A DNA stretch of 64,000 bases from Armatimonadota bacterium (GTDB lineage: Bacteria > Armatimonadota > Chthonomonadetes > Chthonomonadales > Chthonomonadaceae): contig JAGWMJ010000006.1 in assembly GCA_028871815.1 (NCBI GenBank), positions 62,001-126,000 on the forward strand, in the 5' to 3' direction. The position numbers were made by a program, and so were the translations under genes. Below are positions 33,341-52,824 of this stretch, piece by piece. The notes under the pieces are model-generated. The model was not told the DNA's origin and ran no database searches. It saw only the letters and a program-made list of their open reading frames with translations. Position 1 is the first letter of the stretch. Each line of letters opens with the position of its first letter.

Positions 33341-33748
33341 CACCGACTGCGAATAGCAGAACTCGTGTTAGCGACCGATTGCCACGGTGATCCGCGTGTC
33401 GGTCGGATCGGTATCTCGCCCGCACGAAGCCGGCAGCGGCGCGGACCGTTCGCGGGTCAAATCGGCGGTTTCCGAGCATTGGCTGCCACCGTCCCGACCG
33501 GAATGCATTTTTTGATCCTATTGCATTTAAACTGAAGGAATCGGACCCGGATCGGCGGAATTGAACCGATGCCGAAGGCGTAGGTCACAATACGGCCATC
33601 ACCTCGCTATCCAGTCGACCCTAAAGCTCTCAACCTGAAGTGGTTCGTGATGTTCGGCGAAACACCCCGGCCTGTGCTTGGCATTACAACGTGCGATCCG
33701 AGAATGTGCTCGGCATTTGGGGCCGTTGGCCCCACTAGGAGAAACAAC
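33341..33748 (+). other. 408-bp intergenic region
   Basis: No gene or RNA is recognised. An AT-rich stretch with a T-run around 33510-33535 contains TTGATC and is the likely promoter of the HAF gene at 33749. Confidence 0.3.
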
Positions 33749-35089
33749 GTGAATCCAATCAAGATGAACCGTTGCGGATGGGCTGCGTTCGCTGCCGTGT
33801 CTTTAGGCATGATATCAGCGCGGTCTACAGCTCAGACGCGGCTGTCCGTAATCAACCTCGGGCCCAGCGACCCCACTATAACCGCGACAGCAGTCAACGA
33901 CGACTATCAAGTGACGGGCAACTATGTGGATAACTCCTTCGTTCAGCACGGGTTTTTCTGGCAGCCGGGTCTGGTTGCCGAGAATATCACGAATGCTGTC
34001 GAGCTCAACGCTATAAACAACCTCGGCATGTTGGCCGGCGCTATAAGCAGTTCGGGCGCTGACGCTGATATCTGGTATCCGTCGACGCCTTACTCAGGCA
34101 CGTTTACAGCCGTTGCACCGTTCGTTACCACACCCTCCAGCTTTAACGGCGCAGGTGACGACCAGGTGTTTTGTGGTTGGGACGGATCCGGCGGTGTACC
34201 ATTCTGGGACACGTTAGATCCTACGCGCACTGCACAGGGCTATGATTACGGGTCGGCCGCAGGAACCGCGCTTGGAATCGTACAGGGATTGGATGATATG
34301 GTTGGGTATTCCGATTCCGGCGCTACGCGCGCGGCGGCAATGTGGCAATATGGCGCCTCCAGTGTGCCGGCCCAACTGCTCGCCGTCGTCAGCGGTTTCG
34401 GCAACCCGTCGGCGGTCACCGCCAGCGACGAAGGGCTCGATATGGTTGGATATGCCACCAGCACGGCATTTCCAACGCCGCTTCAGCCAATGGCCTTCAC
34501 CTACACAGGCGCGGCTTCCACGGCACTAGCCCTGCTGCCGCGCACCATCACGGGCGAGGCGCTGGCAATAAACGGGGCCGCGATCCTCATCGGTGGTTAC
34601 TGTAATACGGAGGCGACCGTCTGGTTTCCAAGCGGCGGGAATTATGGCTACAACAATCCCGTCGACTTGAACTCTCTGACCGGGCCAACCAGCCAGTGGC
34701 ATCTGCAGACAGTCACGGGCATCAACGACTACGGCGCCTTCGTCGGCGCGGGTCTGTTCGGGCAGAAGCATGTGGCATATCTGGCGATTCCCGTCACGTT
34801 GTCTGGCTTGACGCTCAGCAGTAACCAGGTCGTTGGAGCCACGTCGGTTATCGGTACTGTAACCATCGGCAGCCCGGCGCCGTTCGACATGACGGTATCG
34901 CTGAGCAGCTTCCTCGCCAACGCTACCTTCACAAATGGGTCGCACAGTTCATCCGTGGTCATCGCGCAGGGGACAACGGATGCGGACTTTCAGCTGAATG
35001 TCGCAAATCCAAGCATCAGAAGCCAGGCGTATATCCGCGCCAACTACGGCGGATGGGACGTCTATTCGAAGCTGGTGTCGGTGCCGTAG
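33749..35089 (+). CDS. exported HAF-repeat protein, first paralogue
   Basis: I start at GTG 33749, 8 bases after AGGAGA; this gives 446 aa with a signal peptide ending near RSTAQ. About six HAF-type repeats follow (TAVNDDYQVTG...HGFFW; ITGEALAINGA), the motif of secreted propeller-like repeat proteins. The last 100 residues form a separate beta domain. It is 673 bases upstream of a close paralogue. A 13-bp perfect hairpin follows. The function of HAF proteins is unknown; surface binding is likely. Confidence 0.8.
   Translation: MNPIKMNRCGWAAFAAVSLGMISARSTAQTRLSVINLGPSDPTITATAVNDDYQVTGNYVDNSFVQHGFFWQPGLVAENITNAVELNAINNLGMLAGAISSSGADADIWYPSTPYSGTFTAVAPFVTTPSSFNGAGDDQVFCGWDGSGGVPFWDTLDPTRTAQGYDYGSAAGTALGIVQGLDDMVGYSDSGATRAAAMWQYGASSVPAQLLAVVSGFGNPSAVTASDEGLDMVGYATSTAFPTPLQPMAFTYTGAASTALALLPRTITGEALAINGAAILIGGYCNTEATVWFPSGGNYGYNNPVDLNSLTGPTSQWHLQTVTGINDYGAFVGAGLFGQKHVAYLAIPVTLSGLTLSSNQVVGATSVIGTVTIGSPAPFDMTVSLSSFLANATFTNGSHSSSVVIAQGTTDADFQLNVANPSIRSQAYIRANYGGWDVYSKLVSVP
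34681..35089 (+). repeat. near-identical 3' segment of HAF pair, copy 1
   Basis: This 409-bp segment and 36681-37090 differ at only about 20 positions, including silent sites. The 5' two thirds of the two genes have diverged much more. Confidence 0.75.
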
Positions 35090-35173
35090 GCGTCGCCACC
35101 CGCACTCGGATGCGTGGCGTCCGGATGGCGCGCAGGCGCCAGAGGTCCCGCCGCATTCGCGCTTATCGTGGCG

Positions 35174-35209
35174 CACCGGGGCTGCCGACATTCCGCGGCA
35201 GCCCCGGTG
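35174..35209 (+). terminator. hairpin after first HAF gene
   Basis: A perfect 13-bp stem (CACCGGGGCTGCC / GGCAGCCCCGGTG) with a 10-base loop. No T-run follows, so it may end transcription or protect the mRNA end. Confidence 0.5.
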
Positions 35210-35301
35210 GAGCACTCATTAACTAACCCCTCGTGCGGGCGATGGTTTCGCGCCGCTCATCGAGACAGGTTCGACCCCTCGGTTTCCGTGACTCGATCGA
35301 G

Positions 35302-35410
35302 TTGACACGCGGGGACCGACTGCGCGGGAGCCCCGCGGGTAACTGCAAAGCCGGGTCAGCCTTCTGGCTAAGTACGTACCTTGGGGCTGCAGGTAGTTCG
35401 GCTGGTTTGC
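35302..35410 (+). other. structured stretch between HAF genes
   Basis: Several nested pairings can be drawn. GCGGGG/CCCCGC spans 35309-35336. GCAA plus AGCCG (35345-35353) pairs with CGGCT and TTGC near 35399-35410. Two small hairpins lie inside. No known riboswitch consensus fits. The rest of the 672-base gap holds no gene. Confidence 0.25.
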
Positions 35411-35761
35411 GGTGGTGGCTGTGGCAGAACCTTGCTCTTGACGCTCACTGCCGGGCGCTCCGTCTGATCACCGGCACTAGCTCATGCCACGGGCGGCGAC
35501 GCGCCCGTAAATCGCCCTTATTGCTTCGTTAACCGCAGTCATGAAGGACTCTGCCCGCGATCCGAAGAATGTAACGGACGGAGGTAGCACGGGCCATGAT
35601 GCGGTCACCGCCTTACCTCTCAGTCTGCAGGAACGCATGCCGCCAACGGGTGTTTGCGTTGAAGTAACGGTGTGGACGGTGCCCGGCTTGTACTCCCGCT
35701 CTGTGGCACGATGTGCTGCTATTCAATCGGAGCCATAATTGGTCCAATCAGGAGGAATCAG

Positions 35762-37090
35762 GTGAGTTCCATGAAATCTACTATCTGTGCATTGGCTGTT
35801 GTCGCCGTTATCGCTTTGGCCACGATGTCCGTTTCGTCGACAGCCCAGACAAGGCTCTCGGTGATCAACCTCGGGCCAACCGGCCCAGCCGCCACGGCGA
35901 CCGCTGTGAACGACGACTATCAGGTGACCGGCACCTGGCTCGATAGCTCTTATGCTTCGCACGGATTCTTCTGGCAGCCCGGTTTGACCGCTCAGAATCT
36001 TACGAATGCTCTCGAACTCAACGGGATTAACAACCTCGGCATTCTGGCAGGGCAGTTAAGCAGCTCGGGTTCGAAGGCCCAATTCTGGTATCCCACTTCG
36101 CCGTACTCCGGTGTGTTTACAGCGGGTACGCCGTTCGCGTCACCCTCTAACCTTACCGGCGTGGGAGACGACCTGGTCTTCTGCGGTTGGGAGGGCGCCA
36201 CGCAAACACCTTTCTGGTCGGCTACAAATGCTACGTTCACGATCGTCGATTACTCTTACGGGTCGAGCCCCGGAACCGCACTCGCAATCATGCCGGCTTT
36301 CGATGCGATGGTAGGGTATTCGGGCTCCGGCAACGCCAGTGCCGCCGCGTGGTGGCCGTATGGCAACGGAACGACGGAGGCGCTTTCCGTGGTAACCGGT
36401 TTCGGCAGTCCGTCGGCCGTTACCGCAGTCGACGCGGGGTTTGATATGGTGGGTTACGCAACCTCAACCACATTTCCGAACCCGGTACGGCCGATGGCAT
36501 TCAGCGTGAATTCTACATCCACGAACATGGGCCTACTGCCCCATACCTACACGGGCGAGGCGCTGGCAATCAACGGACCGACGGGCATGATCGGAGGATA
36601 CTGCGGCACAGAGGCGACCGTTTGGTATCCGAGCGGCGGGAATTATGCTTACTTCAATCCCACTGACCTGAACACTCTGACCGGGCCAACCAGCCAATGG
36701 CATCTCCAGTCGGTCACCGGCATCAACGACTACGGCGCCTTCGTCGGCGCAGGTCTGTTCGGGCAGAAGCATGTGGCATATCTGGCGATTCCCGTCACGT
36801 TGTCTGGACTGACGCTCAGCAGTAACCAGGTCGTTGGAACCACGTCGGTTACCGGTACTGTAACCATCGGCAGCCCGGCGCCGTTCGACATGACAGTATC
36901 GCTGAGCAGCTTCCTCGCCAATGCTACCTTCACAAACGGGTCACACAGTTCATCCGTGGTGATCGCGCAGGGGACGACGGATGCGGACTTTCAGCTGAAT
37001 GTCGCAAATCCCAGCGTCAGAAGCGAGGCGTATATCCGCGCTAACTACGGCGGATGGGACGTGTATTCGAAGCTGGTGTCGCTTCCGTAG
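35762..37090 (+). CDS. exported HAF-repeat protein, second paralogue
   Basis: GTG 35762 lies 6 bases after a perfect AGGAGG; the protein has 442 aa. It has a signal peptide, the same HAF repeats and the same C-terminal beta domain as the gene at 33749. The repeat half differs clearly between the two, while the C-terminal domain is almost identical in DNA. Both carry TAQTRLSVINLGP right after the signal. Duplicated surface proteins with a constant end and a varied binding part are the simplest reading. Confidence 0.8.
   Translation: MSSMKSTICALAVVAVIALATMSVSSTAQTRLSVINLGPTGPAATATAVNDDYQVTGTWLDSSYASHGFFWQPGLTAQNLTNALELNGINNLGILAGQLSSSGSKAQFWYPTSPYSGVFTAGTPFASPSNLTGVGDDLVFCGWEGATQTPFWSATNATFTIVDYSYGSSPGTALAIMPAFDAMVGYSGSGNASAAAWWPYGNGTTEALSVVTGFGSPSAVTAVDAGFDMVGYATSTTFPNPVRPMAFSVNSTSTNMGLLPHTYTGEALAINGPTGMIGGYCGTEATVWYPSGGNYAYFNPTDLNTLTGPTSQWHLQSVTGINDYGAFVGAGLFGQKHVAYLAIPVTLSGLTLSSNQVVGTTSVTGTVTIGSPAPFDMTVSLSSFLANATFTNGSHSSSVVIAQGTTDADFQLNVANPSVRSEAYIRANYGGWDVYSKLVSLP
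36681..37090 (+). repeat. near-identical 3' segment of HAF pair, copy 2
   Basis: Partner of 34681-35089; see that entry for the comparison. Confidence 0.75.
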
Positions 37091-37114
37091 ACAGCACGAT
37101 CAAGTGGCACCGGG

Positions 37115-37152
37115 CTGCAGATGCCGCCGCATTTGCGCGGCGGCATCTGCAG
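37115..37152. terminator. strong hairpin between convergent genes
   Basis: A perfect 16-bp stem (CTGCAGATGCCGCCGC and its complement) with a 6-base loop. It lies between the second HAF gene and the sugar isomerase and could end both transcripts. A short T-rich stretch follows on the plus side. Confidence 0.65.
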
Positions 37153-37192
37153 TCATCTAATTGCCTTTGGGGGCGCCGCGACGGGGAACTGC

Positions 37193-37972
37193 CTATACGC
37201 CGAGTCGATCGCGCATATAGCGGCGAGAGATCGTGACCGATTCGCGGTGAGGTAGGTCGGTCGAATCCTGTTCGGCAACAATCCACTCTGCGCCGGCCTC
37301 GCGCGCGGCGGCCATCGCAGAATCAAGGTCCACCTCACCGCGTCCCAGCTCCAGAAAGCGCGGGTGAACCTTTCCCTCTGCGTCCCTTTGCCGATTGCCA
37401 TCCTTGAAGTGATAGTAGTGCGCGCGCGCGTGGTTGGCGGCGATGAACGCGGCGGGATCGCGGTTGGCATAGTAGAGCCAGTAGACATCGAGGTTCAGAC
37501 CGACGAGGTCCGGGTCCGTTTCGGCCAGCAGCACGTCCATGCCGCAGCCGCCGTCCTGTGGCGTGAACTCCCAGGCGTGATTGTGGTAGCAGAACTGAGC
37601 GCCGGCGGCGCGCGCCATTCGACCGATGTCATTGAAGCGTGCGGCCGACGCTTTATATCCAGCGAGTGAGCCGGAGTCCGCCACGCCGGAGCACATCAGG
37701 TACCGGATGCCCAGCGCGTTCATGTAAGCAAGGTGATGTTCGATGCGCGCGTCGTCGGCAAACTCGCCATAGCCAAAATGCGCGCCACTTACGCCAAGGC
37801 CGTTCTCCGCCAGCAGATCGCGGGCAACGGGCTCCGTAAGCTGATCGAACAGGTTTCCCGCTTCGATAGCGGGAAAGCCGGCGGCTGCAATATCCTGGAG
37901 CACACCGGGAAAGTCGCTGCGGTTTCGCGAGCCAAACACGATAAGCTGAACAGCGGCTCGTGGATTCGTCAT
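37193..37972 (-). CDS. sugar phosphate isomerase/epimerase (TIM barrel)
   Basis: The 259-aa protein starts at ATG 37972; the longer frame lacks support. It has the xylose-isomerase-like TIM fold with metal-binding motifs YHNHAWEF and LDVYW, and Glu/Asp in the late strand (VAEQD). Such enzymes isomerise or epimerise sugars and polyols, including inositol derivatives. It lies 22 bases after the GH78 rhamnosidase gene, so it may process a released sugar. Confidence 0.82.
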   Translation of the reverse strand: MTNPRAAVQLIVFGSRNRSDFPGVLQDIAAAGFPAIEAGNLFDQLTEPVARDLLAENGLGVSGAHFGYGEFADDARIEHHLAYMNALGIRYLMCSGVADSGSLAGYKASAARFNDIGRMARAAGAQFCYHNHAWEFTPQDGGCGMDVLLAETDPDLVGLNLDVYWLYYANRDPAAFIAANHARAHYYHFKDGNRQRDAEGKVHPRFLELGRGEVDLDSAMAAAREAGAEWIVAEQDSTDLPHRESVTISRRYMRDRLGV

Positions 37973-50817: not shown

Positions 50818-52824
50818 ATGAAGTCGCAACCTCTCGCCGCGGACAGCATGTCGCGCGCAGGTAGGCTGTGCTCCGGTATGCGCGCATTCGGCGGCATAAC
50901 GATCGCCTCGCTGGCGTTGGTTGCTTTTGCAACCGTAGCGGCCGGCCAGGCATTCGGCACCTATTATGACCGTCACGACTTCGGCGGCACTATTACCAAT
51001 GCCAATGGCATCAGCGGTCCCGACGGCGTTCGTCCGTCGAGCCACGTGACCTTTGACGCGGCCGGAAATATGTACGGCACCGCCGCAAGCGGCGGCGCCG
51101 CGAGTGCCGGCCTTGTTTGGGAGATAACGGCGTCTGATGCCTATAAGGACCTGCACGATTTCGGCGGTACCGTCACCAATTCGAACGGTAAAAGCGGGCC
51201 GGATGGCTCTTCGCCCTCGGCGGGAATTACGTTTGACGCGGCTGGAAATATGTACGGAACCACATCCTTCGGCGGGGCTATGAGCGACGGAGTGGTCTGG
51301 GAGATAACCTCTGCCGGTACCTACCGGGACCGGCACGATTTCGGCGGTACCATTACGAACGCCGACGGCACGAGCGGGCCGGACGGCCACTCGCCACACG
51401 CGGGTGTTACGCTCGATGCTGCTGGAAACATGTACGGGGTCACGTTGTCCGGCGGAGCCAATAACGCGACAGGTGTTTCCGGCATGGTCTGGGAGATAAC
51501 CGCCGGTGGCGCGTACCGGGACCTGCACGATTTCGGAGGTTATATCACCGAAACCAATGGAAGCCGGGGACCGGACGGCTCGAGCCCACGCGACGACGTC
51601 ACCTTTGACCCGTCTGGAAACATGTACGGCGTCGCCCCTTACGGAGGCGGTCTGAACGAGGGTCTGGTCTGGAAGATAACAACTGCCGGGGCATATTCGG
51701 ATCTTCACGACTTCGGCGGTACGGCTAACTATCCCGCGGGTGGCACCGGCCCCGATGGCTACCTCCCGGAGAGCCGCGTCACATTCGACTCAGCCGGAGA
51801 TATGTATGGATCCGCGGCGTGGGGCGGCGCGAACAGCTCCGGCACACCGGGCGGAATTGTATGGGAATTGAGTGCCGGTGGCGTATACCAGGACCTTCAC
51901 GATTTCGGTGGCACCGTTCTGAATGCCGATGGAAGCAGCGGTCCAGACGGATTTGACCCGTACGGTCCCGTAGGGTTTGATGGCGCCGGAAACCTGTACG
52001 GCGCTGCCTATTCAGGTGGGGCGCAAAACGCGAACCAGTACTCCGGCATGGCGTGGGAAATAACGGCTTCCGGCGCTTACAAGGACCTGCACGATTTCGA
52101 CGGCTCCGTCACCAACGCGAACGGTACCAGCGGTCCAGACGGCGCGACGCCGTACGGCGGTGTCACGCTGGATGCCACAGGCAACCTATACGGCTCTGCC
52201 TACGAAGGCGGAGGCAATGGCGGCGGAATAGTGTGGGAGTTGGCGCTGGTAGTTAACAACCCGGTACCAACGCTCTCCGCCATCTCGCCGGCATCGGCGC
52301 TGGTTGGCGGTCGGTCCACTGCAGTAACCGTTACCGGTACGGGCTTCATTGCGACCAGTACCGTCAAGTGGAATGGCGCAGCTCTGAGCACCACCTATGC
52401 GAGCGCCACCTCGCTGACGGCCGTGGTGCCGGCCTCCGATCTCCTGACGCCGGGTTCGTATCCCATAACGGTGGAAAACGGCACACCGGGCGGCGGGACA
52501 TCCAATGCCGTCTCGTTTGCCGTTCGGGCGTATCCCGTACATCTGGCAGGTCTGTTTATCAATCCTGCCGCAGTAACGGGCGGCTCAACCGCAACCGGCG
52601 TGATATTCCTCTCCGGCCTGGCTCCGGCGGGTGGAATCACCGTGCAGTTGACATCGTCGCGCCCCGGAGTGACATCGGTACCGCGATTTGTGGTGGTAAA
52701 GCAGGGCTCCAGTACGGCGACGTTCCGGTTGAACACACTTCCGCCAACGGCCGCGACGACCTGCCGGATCACGGCTACCTACCTGACGATCGCCCGGGCC
52801 GGATACCTGACTGTGAATCCGTAG
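50818..52824 (+). CDS. exported GloVer-like repeat protein with IPT/TIG domain
   Basis: The 668-aa protein has an export signal (ATVAAGQAF). Seven to eight repeats of about 60 residues follow, each with DLHDFGG, GPDG, FDAAGNMYG and VWEIT. An IPT/TIG domain comes next (TLSAISPASALVGG, about 480-570). The C-terminal beta domain (LFINPAAVTGGSTATG) resembles the end of the HAF proteins at 33749 and 35762. All parts point to surface binding; the ligand is unknown. Confidence 0.85.
   Translation: MKSQPLAADSMSRAGRLCSGMRAFGGITIASLALVAFATVAAGQAFGTYYDRHDFGGTITNANGISGPDGVRPSSHVTFDAAGNMYGTAASGGAASAGLVWEITASDAYKDLHDFGGTVTNSNGKSGPDGSSPSAGITFDAAGNMYGTTSFGGAMSDGVVWEITSAGTYRDRHDFGGTITNADGTSGPDGHSPHAGVTLDAAGNMYGVTLSGGANNATGVSGMVWEITAGGAYRDLHDFGGYITETNGSRGPDGSSPRDDVTFDPSGNMYGVAPYGGGLNEGLVWKITTAGAYSDLHDFGGTANYPAGGTGPDGYLPESRVTFDSAGDMYGSAAWGGANSSGTPGGIVWELSAGGVYQDLHDFGGTVLNADGSSGPDGFDPYGPVGFDGAGNLYGAAYSGGAQNANQYSGMAWEITASGAYKDLHDFDGSVTNANGTSGPDGATPYGGVTLDATGNLYGSAYEGGGNGGGIVWELALVVNNPVPTLSAISPASALVGGRSTAVTVTGTGFIATSTVKWNGAALSTTYASATSLTAVVPASDLLTPGSYPITVENGTPGGGTSNAVSFAVRAYPVHLAGLFINPAAVTGGSTATGVIFLSGLAPAGGITVQLTSSRPGVTSVPRFVVVKQGSSTATFRLNTLPPTAATTCRITATYLTIARAGYLTVNP
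50960..52250 (+). repeat. about 180-bp coding tandem repeats
   Basis: Seven or so units encode the DLHDFGG...GNMYG...VWEIT module. They are regularly spaced and similar in DNA but not identical, consistent with older internal duplication. Confidence 0.75.

Follow-up and report, generated by a model that had tools for sequence, protein, structure and literature searches.

The gene pair and its encoded proteins

The window analysed here, a stretch of 64,000 nucleotides from the genome of an Armatimonadota bacterium (3.68 Mb in 22 contigs, 98.3% complete), contains two paralogous genes in tandem. The gene boundaries given in a preliminary description of this DNA are correct, as both genes are open reading frames with a ribosome-binding site in front of a GTG start codon. 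The features of the locus, numbered by window position, are the following.

33749–35089, + strand: gene 1 (HAF1), open reading frame with GTG start at 33749 and AGGAG ribosome-binding site at 33737–33741
34664–34680, + strand: junction of the diverged and the putatively homogenised parts, 2-lnL support of the one-break model
34674–35089, + strand: candidate homogenised tract of gene 1, covering the predicted last propeller blade and Ig-like domain, stop codon included
34784–35086, + strand: predicted C-terminal Ig-like β-sandwich of gene 1, from a separate AlphaFold model and Foldseek
35174–35209, + strand: hairpin after gene 1, 14-bp perfect stem, fold z-score −4.2, outside the tract
35762–37090, + strand: gene 2 (HAF2), tandem paralogue of gene 1, GTG start at 35762 and AGGAGG ribosome-binding site at 35750–35755
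36675–37090, + strand: candidate homogenised tract of gene 2, ungapped counterpart of 34674–35089
37113–37154, + strand: hairpin after gene 2, 18-bp perfect stem, fold z-score −5.0, outside the tract

The gene 1 product is predicted to comprise a signal-peptide-like N-terminus (assigned by eye), a β-propeller at residues ~30–350 and an Ig-like domain at residues ~351–446. The best of five AlphaFold models has a pLDDT of 79.2 and a pTM of 0.81; the pLDDT of the other four is 69–75. Residues ~31–349 of the model match propellers of known structure, for example PDB entry 7fh7 with a Z score of 29.5 and an RMSD of 3.2 over 302 residues. The 50 best matches of this part, which include integrin alpha and WD-repeat propellers, all have Z scores of at least 21.3. 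The N-terminal ~350 residues are thus modelled as a ring of β-sheet blades, a β-propeller. The C-terminal domain modelled alone yields a pLDDT of 90.4 and generic β-sandwich matches in Foldseek (best E 2.8e-4, TMq 0.44–0.63), which we take to be Ig/Fn3-like domains; the model accordingly depicts the C-terminus as a single Ig-like or Fn3-like β-sandwich of ~100 residues. Sialidases head the Foldseek matches of the whole gene 1 model and were rejected, with a TM score of ~0.3 and an RMSD near 18. Because the propeller and sandwich matches are generic, no function was assigned.

Distant relatives of the Ig-like module occur on other proteins of this genome. One carrier is a repeat protein encoded in the window itself (52528–52788). 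A second resembles subtilases and a third, with several copies, resembles propellers. The fourth, with two copies, is a classical HAF protein, identified by a score of 79.5 bits; the other carriers were labelled by eye.

Eleven full-length members of the family to which the two genes belong are encoded in the genome. A hydrophobic N-terminal stretch is present in all 11 members in the alignment and is read as a signal peptide, so that the proteins are probably secreted. Against the HAF repeat profile TIGR02913 (HAF_rpt), with a cut-off of 22.65 bits, gene 1 scores 9.6–10.1 and gene 2 11.2–11.3 bits, depending on the start codon, and both thus fall below it. Two of the 11 members pass (L005 with 30.5 bits and L012 with 30.3 bits), six others are below the cut-off (L006 and L008 to L011, as well as L007, which falls short by 0.15 bits) and L013 has no match. 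A Pfam search with both window proteins returned no match, DUF3466 (PF11949) included; the gathering score of that family is passed by one of the 11 members, L005, through residues 10–60. By sequence homology, the window genes are classed as HAF-like through paralogues that are homologous over their full length, not through their own TIGR02913 scores.

The 672 bases between the genes (35090–35761) contain one open frame that overlaps neither gene, of 99 codons (35233–35532). Both hairpins appear terminator-like but have no T run, and a terminator scan that requires a T run listed neither of them. A promoter scan of 33341–37250 returned one match, compared with 1.5 in shuffled sequences.

A step in divergence within the pair

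Amino acid identity between the proteins of gene 1 and gene 2 is 72% along the full length, 64% in the propeller part and 96% in the common tail. The preliminary description had reported that the last 409 bases differ at about 20 sites and that the repeat half is strongly diverged. Both observations hold; the exact count over those 409 bases is 23, with 6, 1 and 16 differences at first, second and third codon positions, respectively. A one-break model fitted to all aligned coding bases places the change at 34674, with support from 34664 to 34680 and a 2lnLR of 132.8. To the left of this position 293 of 913 aligned bases differ, compared with 23 of 413 to the right. A direct nucleotide alignment yields the same break, with 23 differences in 416 bases when the stop codon is counted.

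The step is also present at silent sites, where pS drops from 0.56 in the 5' part to 0.16 in the 3' part. In windows of 30 codons along the codon alignment, pS is 0.43–0.80 for windows starting before 34634, 0.30 for the window starting at 34634 and 0.04–0.24 from 34679 to the stop codon. This sliding-window comparison had been proposed as a check of the mosaic, with uniform silent divergence as the outcome that would speak against it; the divergence is stepped and not uniform. Among codons that encode the same residue in both genes, 81 of 168 differ to the left of alignment column 326 and 16 of 139 to the right, and none of 2000 permutations produced as strong a contrast. Fourfold-degenerate sites differ at 63 of 114 positions before 34674 and at 11 of 77 after it. 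Their best break lies at 34636 (support 34615–34660), again with no permutation in 2000 as strong. Since the breaks from silent sites only (34631 for same-residue codons and 34636 for fourfold sites) precede the all-site break by ~40 bases, the edge of the tract is not perfectly fixed.

The tract DNA occurs in two copies only in the genome. Its longest identical run is 56 bases, a length reached in 5904 of 10,000 random placements of the differences. The differences are thus scattered, as expected of one event followed by point mutation.

Probable exchange among the eleven paralogues

Besides the window pair on contig C6, the 11 members are distributed over contigs C4 and C18, with three each, and C1, C2 and C5, with one each. 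The window pair forms a deep branch of its own; in the propeller part its identity to the nine remaining members is 23–31%. The neighbourhoods of those nine look unrelated when the first residues of the neighbouring open frames are compared by eye. A sequence at one end of contig C19 (L015) looked like a twelfth member but was rejected, being the L007 gene of contig C5; the two contig ends have 149 identical bases in common inside this family member, so C19 and C5 are probably neighbours in the chromosome. Three weak matches, with E values of 0.001 to 0.23, were left out of the count, namely this contig end and two, L014 and L016, that belong to one classical HAF protein.

Outside this genome, 6 of 40 genomes of relatives contain any match at E values up to 0.001, all of them partial. 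With the source genome this set numbers 41, and none of the others is of the same genus. Within the phylum, a profile match at 1e-15 was found in 11 of 291 genomes, with the source genome counted in both numbers and up to five candidates per genome scored. Two peptide patterns derived from the family alignment gave 56 candidate stretches in a contig collection that may omit very near genomes, and none of the stretches was confirmed. A gene next to the family matched one record, an Armatimonadetes MAG, at 32% identity. Within the genomes compared, the expansion of the family looks lineage-specific. The titles and abstract openings listed for HAF repeats, DUF3466, paralogue conversion and domain shuffling, and gene conversion in Armatimonadetes contain no description of this family.

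The N-terminal and C-terminal parts of the family have conflicting trees. At the nucleotide level, the AU test rejects each tree on the data of the other part, with p 1.6e-5 for the C tree and p 9e-6 for the N tree. With protein sequences the rejection holds in one direction only, for the C tree on the N data; the N tree is not rejected on the C data (p 0.074). When all 55 paralogue pairs were scanned for silent change-points, with at most 20 of 2000 permutations as the criterion, five pairs had one. Similarity is higher in the tail than before it for the window pair (column 326) and L005/L010 (column 352), and lower in the tail for L006/L011 (column 339), L007/L010 (column 382) and L006/L010 (column 393). 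A second tandem pair, L011 and L010 on contig C18 (L059 12959–16302), with propellers 71% and tails 76% identical, is absent from the pairs with a significant silent change-point. The silent sites of the L010 tail are closest to those of the distant member L005, with a pS of 0.32.

Reversals of affinity along the alignment were sought in 990 triplet orientations, with both sides required to be below 1e-3 and orientations with too few informative sites skipped. This full scan supersedes eight triplets that had been picked after the pairwise divergences were seen. Nine orientations show a reversal, eight with a break at columns 324–389 and one at column 227. With third positions only, four of the 990 remain (columns 340–375) and those involving L012 are absent; in all four the child is L010 or L011 and the tail partner is L005. 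Thus, the clearest exchange is that of the L005 lineage with L010/L011, and the remaining reversals need all sites. In 40 alignments simulated on a single tree, generated with no indel process and overlaid with the real gaps, 39 gave no reversal and one gave a single reversal; none of the 40 gave any at third positions. The triplets have members in common and are not independent, and the nine may represent two to four exchanges.

In gene 1, residue 311 falls at column 342, and residue 347, close to where the Ig-like domain begins, at column 378. On this mapping, most breaks lie in the predicted last blade or just within the Ig-like domain. Among L005–L008 and L010–L012, columns 340–380 have the highest DNA identity (0.78, followed by 0.76 at columns 400–440) and, by a slight margin, the lowest fraction of silent differences (0.42, compared with 0.43–0.58 elsewhere). 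The high identity could promote recombination or could result from it. Taken from the sequences, exchanges seem to be recurrent among the 11 paralogues and to fall mostly near the propeller/Ig boundary.

Origin of the mosaic and its meaning

The preliminary description had suggested gene conversion of the C-terminal domain. Conversion as such is well supported by the sharp silent step, by the high silent divergence of the same tract from the other paralogues (given below) and by the tree conflict in the family. The restriction to the C-terminal domain is not borne out, as the tract starts in the last blade, ~35 residues before the Ig-like domain. We therefore favour, with a probability of about 0.82, a history in which gene conversion, or homologous replacement of an equivalent kind, homogenised the last blade and the Ig-like domain of the pair, and in which this was one of repeated exchanges between family members. 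The tandem copies of the propeller and Ig-like protein would be old, and the 3' third of one copy (~413 coding bases) would later have been overwritten from the other. The overwriting presumably proceeded by homologous recombination, as a single event with no crossing over. It would have started near the end of the propeller and run out at the stop codon, the limit of homology, and the 23 differences (16 at third codon positions) would have gathered since. Across the family, the C-terminal module would have been traded among paralogues while the propellers diverged under purifying selection.

The same mosaic would arise from the inverse history, in which the genes are younger tandem duplicates and one 5' part was replaced by a diverged homologue, such as the allele of a related species. 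The flanks bear on both histories. Comparison of the upstream, intergenic and downstream pieces of both genes gave matches at chance level only (best E 0.026), which indicates that the tract stops where homology stops. A gapped match 216–220 bases upstream of the two starts, found with permissive scoring, was rejected because standard scoring returned no collinear match. Chance-level similarity upstream is what a replaced upstream part would also give. Downstream, however, young duplicates should have sequence in common, and the best match after the two stop codons is 15 bases at 93% (35148–35162 with 37124–37138, E 0.026). Moreover, no third gene is close to either 5' part, the other nine members being as distant as noted above, and the two 5' parts are alike in GC and GC3 content (0.592/0.665 and 0.595/0.690). 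We consider the inverse history unlikely.

Diversifying selection on the propeller, which the preliminary description had offered as the other explanation in the form of selection for change in the binding part, would place the cause of the mosaic in the 5' part. The pairs compared do have a dip in amino acid identity midway along the propeller, and the dN/dS of the window pair rises there to 0.44, making this the least constrained stretch. However, 0.44 is the highest value in any window of 60 columns (0.42 in the group L006/L007/L010/L011), and no such window reaches 1. The 5' part as a whole has a pS of 0.56, a pN of 0.23 and a dN/dS of 0.27, such that its silent sites are diverged as well, and silent divergence in the middle of the propeller equals that of the rest of the 5' part. 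The window-level ratios thus give no support for selection for change and suggest propellers that diverged under purifying selection; we regard diversifying selection as the source of the 5' divergence as very improbable.

A history with no recombination, in which selection on codons or RNA structure held the 3' part back while the 5' part was free to change, could draw on the stronger constraint of the 3' part (pS 0.16, pN 0.02, dN/dS 0.11, compared with 0.27 in the 5' part). However, when the 3' part of gene 1 or gene 2 is compared with each of the nine other paralogues, all 18 pairings have a pS of 0.58–0.70, near saturation. The low silent divergence is thus peculiar to the pair and not a property of the region. 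The abruptness of the step also argues against such selection, as does an Rfam search of the window, including the 672-base intergenic gap, and of the nine other paralogue loci, which found no family at gathering score. This history has hardly any chance of being correct. That the tract is an assembly error, produced by repeats that were collapsed or joined as chimeras, is scarcely credible. One could point to the meeting of contigs C19 and C5 within another family member, but a collapse would give identity and the tract retains its 23 spread differences, 16 of them at third positions.

Interlocus gene conversion in multigene families produces a step in silent divergence, an edge at the limit of homology and purifying selection on both sides. 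The window pair exhibits the same step, edge and selection; in addition, several breaks in this family lie near one domain boundary.

A closer parallel is provided by mtrA-1 and mtrA-2 of methanogens. According to PMC4632066, these paralogues lie in a single operon; gene conversion has homogenised one of their domains, and the other part differs through domain shuffling and gene fusion, with conversion argued across many species. Both systems are neighbouring paralogues with one domain homogenised and the remainder different. The window pair differs from the methanogen genes in being homologous along both parts, in belonging to an 11-member, mostly dispersed family and in having been compared within one genome. 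Domain-limited conversion between adjacent paralogues is thus of a kind already published (PMC4632066). The only somewhat unusual point here is that the breaks recur near a single domain boundary across a HAF-like family that has expanded.

A bolder proposal is that the 11 genes constitute a diversification system, in which a recombination-prone stretch at the domain boundary lets the members swap C-terminal modules, either the Ig-like domain by itself or that domain plus the last blade. Such cassette-like shuffling of largely dispersed, secreted propellers would create new pairs of ligand-binding faces and attachment modules. Both secretion and any ligand-binding role are presumed in this proposal, which we put forward tentatively and think rather doubtful.

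The gene pair, read as a product of gene conversion, shows domain-wise concerted evolution within clean limits. It also cautions that separate histories are blended in whole-gene trees of repeat-protein families of this type. If the exchange of modules is adaptive, the family would be a natural example of bacteria recombining the binding and attachment parts of secreted proteins.
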